Part shown: piece after piece, positions 4,337 through 8,128 of the stretch
Position numbering within the stretch: position 1 is the stretch's first letter
How the letters are laid out: each line of letters opens with the position of its first letter
Virus record (IMG/VR): IMGVR_UViG_3300008217_000107
Span: 1 to 22,857 of that record
Direction: 5' to 3' (one strand)
DNA from: a virus
Length of the DNA: 22,857 nucleotides
The notes under the pieces: generated by a model
What the model was told of the DNA's origin: nothing
The model's input: only the letters and a program-made list of their open reading frames with translations
The model's database searches: none
Made by a program: the position numbers and the translations under genes

Positions 4337-4382
4337 GTAAGGTCGTCGCAGCGACTGAAAACAGGCCCTTAGGCTGCGAGCG

Positions 4383-4416
4383 GCACCCCCTATCTACCCC
4401 TCTGGGTAGGGGGTGC
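4383..4416 (+). other. GC-rich stem-loop at the 5' side of the structured RNA
   Basis: GCACCCC (4383-4389) pairs with GGGGTGC (4410-4416), and inside CTACCC (4394-4399) pairs with GGGTAG (4404-4409) across a 4-nt loop, leaving a CTAT bulge. An alternative 10-bp pairing, GCACCCCCTA with TAGGGGGTGC, is also possible. No U-run follows, so it is read as part of the RNA or as a terminator after the 4040 gene. Confidence 0.5.
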
Positions 4417-4433
4417 GTGGGCATCAGGTTCCG

Positions 4434-4470
4434 TGCGTTTGTAGACGCATGGGGTCTGGCTACAACCAGA
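4434..4470 (+). other. Two hairpins with complementary 6-nt loops (possible kissing loops)
   Basis: Hairpin one is TGCGT-[TTGTAG]-ACGCA (4434-4449). Hairpin two is TCTGG-[CTACAA]-CCAGA (4455-4470). The two hexanucleotide loops are exact reverse complements. They could kiss within one molecule or between molecules; loop-loop contacts of this type hold multimeric phage and bacterial RNAs together. Confidence 0.65.
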
Positions 4471-4527
4471 TTGAGGTATAGGTGCGAACTAGATATTCCA
4501 CTTTACGCCTCAAGCCTGTGTAAGTCC

Positions 4528-4573
4528 CCTTTATAGCAATAGAGGTACGCCGTGTTGCCTCTAAAGGACACGG
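4528..4573 (+). other. H-type pseudoknot, 6 bp plus 6 bp
   Basis: CCTTTA (4528-4533) pairs with TAAAGG (4562-4567), and CCGTGT (4550-4555) pairs with ACACGG (4568-4573). The pairings interleave, and the two 3' strands are directly adjacent, allowing coaxial stacking. Pseudoknots of this form are characteristic of tmRNA and other large structured RNAs. Confidence 0.6.
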
Positions 4574-4729
4574 ATAGGGAGTTACTGGTCCCCTTAAGCG
4601 GAAGGGTTACGTCCCCCGCAACCAGTACCCACATCACGGGGGTATAAGTCGTGATGGCCTAATCCTTGGGGCTTACAAGGTGCGGAGTTGCCGGTCCCGT
4701 CTGATGGAAAGCCTTTGGCTAACCGGCAC

Positions 4730-4822
4730 GGGGGTGAATAGGTTTCGACTCATGTGACCACATGATTCGTCATCATCATGTGTAATCCTTGGGTACCGGG
4801 GTTCGATTCCCCGCACCTCCAC
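4730..4822 (+). ncRNA. tmRNA-like tRNA domain without tag reading frame
   Basis: GGGGGTG (4730-4736) pairs with CACCTCC (4814-4820) as a 7-bp acceptor stem with one G-U pair. It is followed by AATAGGTTTCGACT, matching the conserved 5' end of tmRNA, especially the GGTTTCGACT form in actinobacteria. The T arm is perfect: CGGGG (4797-4801), loop TTCGATT, CCCCG (4809-4813). Between them lies only an 8-bp stem, CACATGAT/ATCATGTG, with an 8-nt loop and a TAATCCTTGGGTA linker. A normal tmRNA is about 350-400 nt with pseudoknots and a tag frame inside; here the whole unit is about 92 nt, with no tag. No standard D or anticodon arm fits a tRNA. CCA is not encoded (A then CGCA follows). It may be an RNase P substrate, a decoy, or a tmRNA relic. 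Confidence 0.7.
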
Positions 4823-4857
4823 GCAAGGAAAGCAAGACGCATACATGGGAGGAATGG

Positions 4858-5088
4858 ATGGCAATGGTGATTGAGTATAAAGATAACGTCGAACTTACTA
4901 AAGCGTTGATGATGGTACTTGAGTTTGATGAGGATAGTAATGGGCAGATTGTGTTCTATAGCAACTGTCGTAACATTCAGACTGAAGTGTTGAATGACAT
5001 GGGTGTTGTGCGTGGTATTGCCTTTGGGATTGAGGAGTTTCCTGATAATCCGTATGTACCAGCAGGTGAACCAAGGAGTGCGAACTAA
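4858..5088 (+). CDS. Unknown small protein (76 aa)
   Basis: Starts 35 bases after the tRNA-like domain. A GGGAGGA sequence lies 4 bases before the ATG at 4858; the frame is open upstream into the RNA, but those starts would read through the T arm and are rejected. The protein begins MAMVIEYKDNVELTKALMMV, is acidic, has an Ile-Val-Phe-Tyr-Ser strand in the middle, and ends with Pro/Glu/Asn-rich sequence. The stop overlaps the next start as TAATG, so the two are translationally coupled. No family was recognised. Confidence 0.65.
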   Translation: MAMVIEYKDNVELTKALMMVLEFDEDSNGQIVFYSNCRNIQTEVLNDMGVVRGIAFGIEEFPDNPYVPAGEPRSAN

Positions 5089-7612: not shown

Positions 7613-7842
7613 TGGGTCGGTTCAAGCACGGTGTTTCTAATTCATACAAACAGTTCAAGTGTCGTTGTAAGATATGCGAGAAGGCTTATCGTGCAGAGTT
7701 GAAGCGTCGGAGTAAGGAGCGGCGAGGTAAGCGGGATGAATCTAAGCGGTTGCCTTCTGTTACTAACTCGTTGGTGTATGACACGATGACACGAGGAGAA
7801 TTTATGAGGTTACGTGGCTACGAAACTGATAGCACCAAGTGA
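7612..7842 (+). CDS. Basic Cys-motif protein (76 aa)
   Basis: A lysine- and arginine-rich protein with His-Gly near the start and Cys-Arg-Cys-Lys-Ile-Cys-Glu-Lys-Ala at residues 18-26. The HG...YxxxxCRCxxCxxA pattern is frequent in small actinobacterial phage and host proteins that may bind nucleic acid. The C-terminal part has a Met-Arg-Leu-Arg-Gly-Tyr helix. It is coupled to ssb by TAATG and overlaps the start of the WhiB-like gene, so the three probably share a transcript. Confidence 0.65.
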   Translation: MGRFKHGVSNSYKQFKCRCKICEKAYRAELKRRSKERRGKRDESKRLPSVTNSLVYDTMTRGEFMRLRGYETDSTK

Positions 7843-8128
7843 ATTAAACCTAGATAGTTGGTGGCGGGATGCCAATTGTAAAGGGTTGAAAGTTAAACAG
7901 GTTACACCAACTGTGTGTGCTAGTTGTACTGTAACGAAGGAATGTATCTGGACTGCGATGACTAGGGATGATCGCCATGAAGAAGCAATGTTTATTCGTG
8001 GTGGTTTGACTGGGTATATACGAGATAAGTTTTGGTATCTACCTAAGTATAGATCTAATAGGTTGCAGGCTTTTGATGCAGCATGTAAAGAGGCTGAGAG
8101 AGTGAGGGAAACCATTGTCAATCAGTAA
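7814..8128 (+). CDS. WhiB-like iron-sulphur transcription factor (104 aa)
   Basis: Four cysteines, C22, C35, C38 and C44, are arranged C-x12-C-x2-C-x5-C, the WhiB pattern that binds a [4Fe-4S] cluster. Upstream is Ser-Trp-Trp-Arg-Asp-Ala-Asn-Cys, a typical WhiB lead-in. Downstream Phe-Ile-Arg-Gly-Gly-Leu-Thr-Gly (60-67) stands where WhiB proteins have G(I/V)WGGLT. The C1-C2 spacing is shorter than the usual 20-30 residues, and the tryptophan of the turn is replaced by arginine. WhiB proteins bind the sigma-70 region 4 of the principal sigma factor and are almost restricted to actinobacteria and their phages, so this is the best host clue. GTG start with GAGG four bases upstream. Confidence 0.8.
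   Translation: MATKLIAPSELNLDSWWRDANCKGLKVKQVTPTVCASCTVTKECIWTAMTRDDRHEEAMFIRGGLTGYIRDKFWYLPKYRSNRLQAFDAACKEAERVRETIVNQ

Follow-up and report, generated by a model that had tools for sequence, protein, structure and literature searches.

A noncoding RNA cassette of a bacterial virus that joins a Pistol ribozyme and a pseudoknotted RNA to a compact tmRNA tRNA-like domain

Phage RNA comprising little beyond the tRNA-like domain (TLD) of tmRNA is known from mycobacteriophage DS6A (PMC4131195, PMC11915505), and the same two sources relate that a TLD-only molecule strongly inhibits tmRNA in E. coli, whether it can be charged or not, perhaps via titration of SmpB (Mao et al. 2009, as described in PMC4131195 and PMC11915505). 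The accounts of the DS6A RNA drawn on here mention neither an ornate RNA nor a ribozyme, and our comparison with it is one of description, not of sequence. GOLLD and ROOL (PMC12286853) are large pseudoknotted phage RNAs that lie near or contain tRNAs, and theta (HDV-like) ribozymes beside phage tRNAs bring together a self-cleaving ribozyme and a tRNA in phage transcripts (PMC10879173). In MALAT1, the tRNA-like mascRNA sits directly behind a structured 3' end, with a presumed RNase P cut. Pistol ribozymes, by the definition taken from PMC4604425, have three stems, a pseudoknot between the P1 loop and the P2-P3 junction and usually a two-nucleotide GU cleavage junction, and known examples are described there as often lying near phage genes.

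The locus described here shares something with each of these systems and differs from all of them. It is shorter than GOLLD and ROOL, its pseudoknots are modular and its partner is a tmRNA-type domain rather than a tRNA; unlike MALAT1-mascRNA, it is bacterial-viral, carries a tmRNA-type domain and has an extra ribozyme at its 5' side, and this ribozyme, being a Pistol, is of another class than the theta ribozymes and precedes a long RNA instead of occupying a tRNA 3' trailer. The covariance search that the original prediction had proposed for tmRNA, GOLLD and ROOL returned a tmRNA match in the window (the whole 22,857-nt stretch analyzed) and no match to GOLLD or ROOL at E up to 5, while the mascRNA-menRNA model reached 16.0 of 42.5 bits on the window, over the T arm only. 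A tmRNA-type partner had been thought new; given DS6A, a TLD-only tmRNA is not wholly so, and what is new, as far as the open PMC literature shows, is that an ornate RNA and a ribozyme are fused to it.

Proteins encoded in the window, a virus record of 22.9 kb in IMG/VR, include a major capsid protein with a match to the SU10 family, a PD-(D/E)XK nuclease and a single-strand binding protein; the carrier is a virus of bacteria. Also in the window, a 104-aa protein (7814-8128, plus strand) with a CxxCxxxxxC motif looks WhiB-like by eye, with no Pfam match at E 0.01. The noncoding RNA cassette lies between two genes at 4341-4823 and comprises, in order, the Pistol ribozyme, the ornate pseudoknotted RNA and the compact TLD (Table 1), the ribosome-binding site of the downstream gene following about 25 nt after the TLD. 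As had been claimed, the stretch is free of genes: no forward reading frame runs across 4341-4823, and a protein-coding alternative was rejected on this ground, with the two reverse frames of 63 and 76 aa that overlap the cassette judged to be chance (the 63-aa frame reads through the T arm of the TLD). At this locus, 495 nt fold with z = -3.8, none of 100 shuffles being equally stable. The cassette showed no excess of promoter or terminator consensus, so it probably belongs to a longer transcript.

Table 1. Features of the cassette and its flanking genes (positions in the window)
Feature	Position	Strand	Details
Upstream ORF, 98 aa	4040-4336	+	Pfam: no match; stop codon 4 nt before ribozyme
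Pistol self-cleaving ribozyme	4341-4422	+	Rfam RF02679, 33.0 bits, E 4e-4
Pistol P1	4342-4345/4352-4355	+	
Pistol P1-loop pseudoknot	4346-4351/4374-4379	+	UCGCAG/CUGCGA
Pistol P2	4365-4368/4419-4422	+	
Pistol P3	4383-4392/4407-4416 at least	+	unusually long
Pistol predicted cut	between G4417 and U4418	+	
Module A junction	4418-4528	+	closed by CAGG 4425-4428/CCUG 4515-4518
Module A hairpin a	4431-4437/4446-4452	+	
Module A hairpin b	4455-4459/4466-4470	+	
Module A kissing loops	4439-4444 with 4460-4465	+	UUGUAG/CUACAA
Module A remainder		+	third arm variable, then invariant GUGUAAGUCCC
H-type pseudoknot	4540-4573	+	UAGAGG/CCUCUA 4540-4545/4558-4563; CCGUGU/ACACGG 4550-4555/4568-4573
Module B copy 1	4577-4629	+	GGG(A)..(U)CCC; ACUGGU 4584-4589/ACCAGU 4621-4626; inner hairpin GCGG..CCGC
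Hairpin	4632-4656 (4632-4638/4650-4656)	+	CAUCACG/CGUGAUG; sequence only
Module B copy 2	4684-4729	+	GGAGUU; GCCGGU 4690-4695/ACCGGC 4722-4727; ends 2 nt before TLD
Compact tmRNA TLD without mRNA-like domain	4730-4823	+	Rfam RF00023 4730-4824, 56.8 bits, cut-off 47
TLD acceptor	4730-4736/4814-4820	+	GGGGGUG/CACCUCC; 7 bp, G3-U70
TLD D-like loop		+	GGUUUCGAC
TLD P2	4748-4754/4788-4794	+	ACUCAUG/CUUGGGU; one U-U mismatch; apical insert
TLD T arm	4797-4813	+	perfect
TLD discriminator	4821	+	A (A73); no encoded CCA
Downstream ORF	4858-5088	+	Pfam: no match; GGAGG ribosome-binding site ~4848

The structures that had led this RNA to be called ornate are real, but the ribozyme at its 5' side had been missed. 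The window Pistol lies 1.5 bits below the RF02679 gathering score of 34.5 bits, and the Rfam alignment mispairs and breaks its long P3; once P3 is drawn as a helix, the defining elements appear, namely P1 with its loop pseudoknot, P2, P3 itself and a GU junction of two nucleotides, and the strongly conserved positions of the Rfam consensus are matched. The Pistols of the related loci L032, L072, L131 and L102, which have a short P3, score 50.8-51.9 bits, and that of L133 scores 33.0 bits. All four helices, as well as the GU junction between P3 and P2, occur in 8 of 8 aligned sequences, with compensatory changes in P1, the pseudoknot and P3. In contrast to known Pistols, that of the window has an extended P3, scores below threshold and heads a long structured RNA ending in a TLD; as it forms the 5' part, self-cleavage probably generates the 5' end of the ornate RNA. 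In another virus contig (L060; 3630-3711 and 5916-6012, minus strand), a high-scoring Pistol (50.7 bits) precedes a compact TLD of the same strand by 2.2 kb, and genes lie in the interval.

The ornate part comprises ~310 nt of pseudoknots and matched no Rfam family. The kissing-loop pair that had been suspected lies in module A; the several stems exist too, and the last of them closes at U4689-A4728 as predicted. The two pseudoknots of the original prediction exist as well, but that count was too low, considering the Pistol P1-loop pseudoknot and those at 4540-4573 (known from the window sequence only), 4577-4629 and 4684-4729, the last two being copies of module B, itself of the H type.

Pattern scans of uncultivated virus contigs revealed the Pistol together with module A in 8 distinct sequences: the window, L032 (identical to L102), L072, L126, L128, L129/L132 (opposite ends of a single contig), L130 and L131. 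In all 8 a TLD follows 3-201 nt behind module A on the same strand, and most of the eight were retrieved again by patterns without the TLD. The direct joining of an ornate RNA to a tmRNA-type domain recurs in relatives, where the modules are rearranged like beads: the order is Pistol-A-TLD in L032, L126 and L128, Pistol-A-B-TLD in L072, L130, L131 and L129/L132, Pistol-A-B-B-TLD in the window, B-TLD in L070 and L113, and Pistol-B in L133, a related phage with a downstream gene similar to that of the window, whose 33 kb contain no TLD. In L032 and L132 the TLD is followed immediately on its 3' side by another, non-canonical tRNA-like fold with acceptor CACGGG/CCCGTG and T arm GCGGGTTCGATTCCCGC, called by neither ARAGORN nor Rfam. 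Conserved noncoding blocks, for example GGGTGTACG..CACCGTGGTA..GCAGCGGG and GGGTGTGCCTGTCCTAAGCAGGTGGCACCC, which resemble further structured RNAs, lie downstream of the TLD in L072 and L082 and also in L131, L070, L113 and L132.

The check for compensatory changes in relatives, set beforehand, was passed; their absence had been named as the finding that would count against the original prediction, and the changes are there. In an alignment of the 8 related sequences, a small sample with 41 pairs and 324 cells, 98.1% of cells are standard pairs, against 89.3 +/- 1.1% when columns are shuffled and 27-46% when the register is slid, and 12 of the 41 pairs change on both sides, which none of 500 shuffles reached (the shuffles ignore kinship). 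The second stem of module B was paired in 36/36 cells over 6 variants, with 4 of its 6 pairs covarying (shuffle fraction 0.0013). The kissing loop, present in 8/8 sequences with 5-6 bp, hardly varies and is thus backed by conservation rather than covariation. As judged from these alignments, the folds of the ornate RNA are under selection.

The composite arrangement is rare and confined to one small phage group. A covariance model (R1), which scores module A of the window at 153 bits by construction, found no further homologue over 97 loci except L133, and module A nowhere else; among 77 TLD-bearing records searched, few had a Pistol. Against 50,697 phage records, the window element had no DNA match, and the composite relatives L128 and L072 matched over the TLD only. 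Further matches to module A or module B patterns beyond the known loci were coding sequence or unrelated DNA, and one candidate from the Pistol pattern (L162) was unrelated by eye. Because most compact TLDs come without a Pistol or ornate RNA, the TLD and the ornate half may work independently.

The tmRNA-like character claimed for the domain from 4730 onward held up. The RF00023 match covers 95 nt with the middle of the model deleted; no mRNA-like domain with a tag frame is present in these 95 nt, and P2 is closed by a hairpin. The acceptor, P2 and T arm all appear in the minimum-energy fold, and the tmRNA hallmarks (G3-U70, A73, a tmRNA-type D loop and the T arm) are all found, but ARAGORN run on the window missed the domain. 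A two-piece (permuted) tmRNA was rejected, with RF04321 at 18.4 of 47 bits and the acceptor strands in normal order. The apical insert is longer than in most compact TLDs. An 11-mer, TAATCCTTGGG, occurs both in the ornate RNA (4660-4670) and in the 3' strand of P2 (4783-4793); this duplication is perhaps the trace of a recombination behind the odd P2.

Compact TLDs are not limited to the composite loci. A scan of viral contigs with a pattern of D-like loop plus T arm at short spacing, in which U70, UUCGAC, the T loop and some of the acceptor were fixed, matched at least 119 stretches (L002-L120), and among the matches listed 104 had a full 7-bp acceptor; the rest, lacking it, were set aside as tRNA-like chance combinations. 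At least 70 distinct sequences, mostly 77-79 nt long, were obtained, and like the DS6A RNA they are little more than a TLD. Among the matches listed, 70 of 70 distinct TLDs have A73, G3 (not A) opposite U70 and the equivalent of tmRNA A334, which in E. coli contacts SmpB (PMC8363625), none of which the pattern forced; A15, another SmpB contact, is usually U. P2 was paired in a fixed register in 90% of cells, vs. 44% in shuffles and 34-44% in slid registers, and all six standard pair types occur in it. Most of these viral TLDs are solitary and closely follow a gene or belong to a tRNA array, as in the Streptomyces phages LuckySocke and BRock, where they are unannotated within such arrays. In prokaryotes (84,980 species, one genome each, base 70 free in the pattern), 14 of 19 matches were chance combinations and only 5 were true TLDs, all with U70; as the viral and prokaryote patterns differ slightly, the viral excess is a strong impression and not a measured ratio.

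Based on these features, we consider on balance that the cassette frees itself, with the Pistol and RNase P cutting it out of a polycistronic transcript and the TLD acting as a decoy of host SmpB. The cassette would be transcribed within a longer message from a series of phage genes that share a strand; cleavage by the Pistol at 4417/4418 would give the ornate RNA a defined 5'-OH end, and a cut by host RNase P before G4730 would trim its 3' end and free the TLD, to which the host would add CCA. The TLD would then be charged with alanine by AlaRS, bind SmpB and EF-Tu and, lacking a tag frame, compete with host tmRNA, so that trans-translation is damped during infection, while the ornate part may persist as a separate stable RNA or, if it stays joined to the TLD, form a larger RNA bound to SmpB. 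Because a ribozyme and an RNase P site bracket the ornate part, excision explains the layout most simply. The decoy function is favored because the TLD keeps the alanine-charging requirements and most known SmpB contacts, no tag frame was found in the ornate part of four homologues checked, no SmpB gene was found in 25 phages with a compact TLD, and a TLD-only molecule inhibits tmRNA; with neither tag frame nor phage SmpB, a host partner must be used. What speaks against the overall reading is the low Pistol score in the window, the mismatch in P2 and the longer apical insert of its TLD, the rarity of the arrangement beside the compact TLDs that lack a Pistol or ornate RNA, and the putative nature of the benefit that a phage would draw from blocked trans-translation.

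The close spacing of the two halves fits another reading, in which the TLD only marks where RNase P trims the ornate RNA, the role that mascRNA plays for MALAT1, the TLD fragment being waste and the ornate RNA the functional product: in the window, L032, L128, L126, L072, L131 and L132, only 2-9 nt separate the TLD from the final helix of the ornate part or from its GUCCC end. We regard this reading as unlikely, given that many phages have a compact TLD without ornate RNA and that A73, G3-U70 and the A334 equivalent, all retained in the TLDs, are dispensable for RNase P. More doubtful still is a full-length chimera escaping RNase P, whose TLD would deliver the ornate RNA to SmpB or stalled ribosomes much as tmRNA does its pseudoknot ring; the ornate part is rich in pseudoknots and adjoins the acceptor stem, and we found no feature separating cut from uncut, but a perfect acceptor stem would be a good RNase P substrate, and the 5' ends of tmRNA and tRNA are normally produced by this enzyme.

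The two remaining explanations fare worse. A relic that has decayed from a phage tmRNA or integration site and now lacks a function would account for the modest Rfam scores and for the lack of a TLD in the related phage L133, but it is contradicted by the invariant identity bases and by the compensatory changes seen in the Pistol, in modules A and B and in P2, and seems to us highly improbable. A working split tmRNA with its tag frame in trans, in the ornate RNA, is barely tenable. It draws on ARAGORN, which reads the composite element of L032 (5905-6228, minus strand) as a 324-nt tmRNA with tag AWDYNPMWVQCSA, but this call is a miscall, none of the other ten of the 11 related loci being called; moreover, no frame ending in AA, LA or AL was found in the four homologues checked, and P2 is closed on itself and the strand order is not permuted, unlike in two-piece tmRNA. 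We therefore rejected it on the tag-frame and ARAGORN results.

Returning to the self-freeing cassette with an SmpB decoy, compact tmRNA-like domains have been known from one phage in the open PMC literature, and viral contigs contain at least 70 distinct ones, which carry the alanine-charging and most SmpB bases; ARAGORN missed the one in the window and called none correctly in the 11 related loci checked. This gives grounds, open to testing, for proposing that interference with ribosome rescue is common among phages. The fusion would add a new family of structured RNAs and, with it, a natural scheme whereby ribozyme and RNase P jointly excise a noncoding RNA from a message. We tentatively postulate, as a possibility short of an expectation, that this is a new phage RNA architecture, a pseudoknotted RNA excised by ribozyme and RNase P and coupled to an SmpB- and AlaRS-binding decoy, and that it may reflect a widespread anti-trans-translation strategy overlooked by annotation programs.
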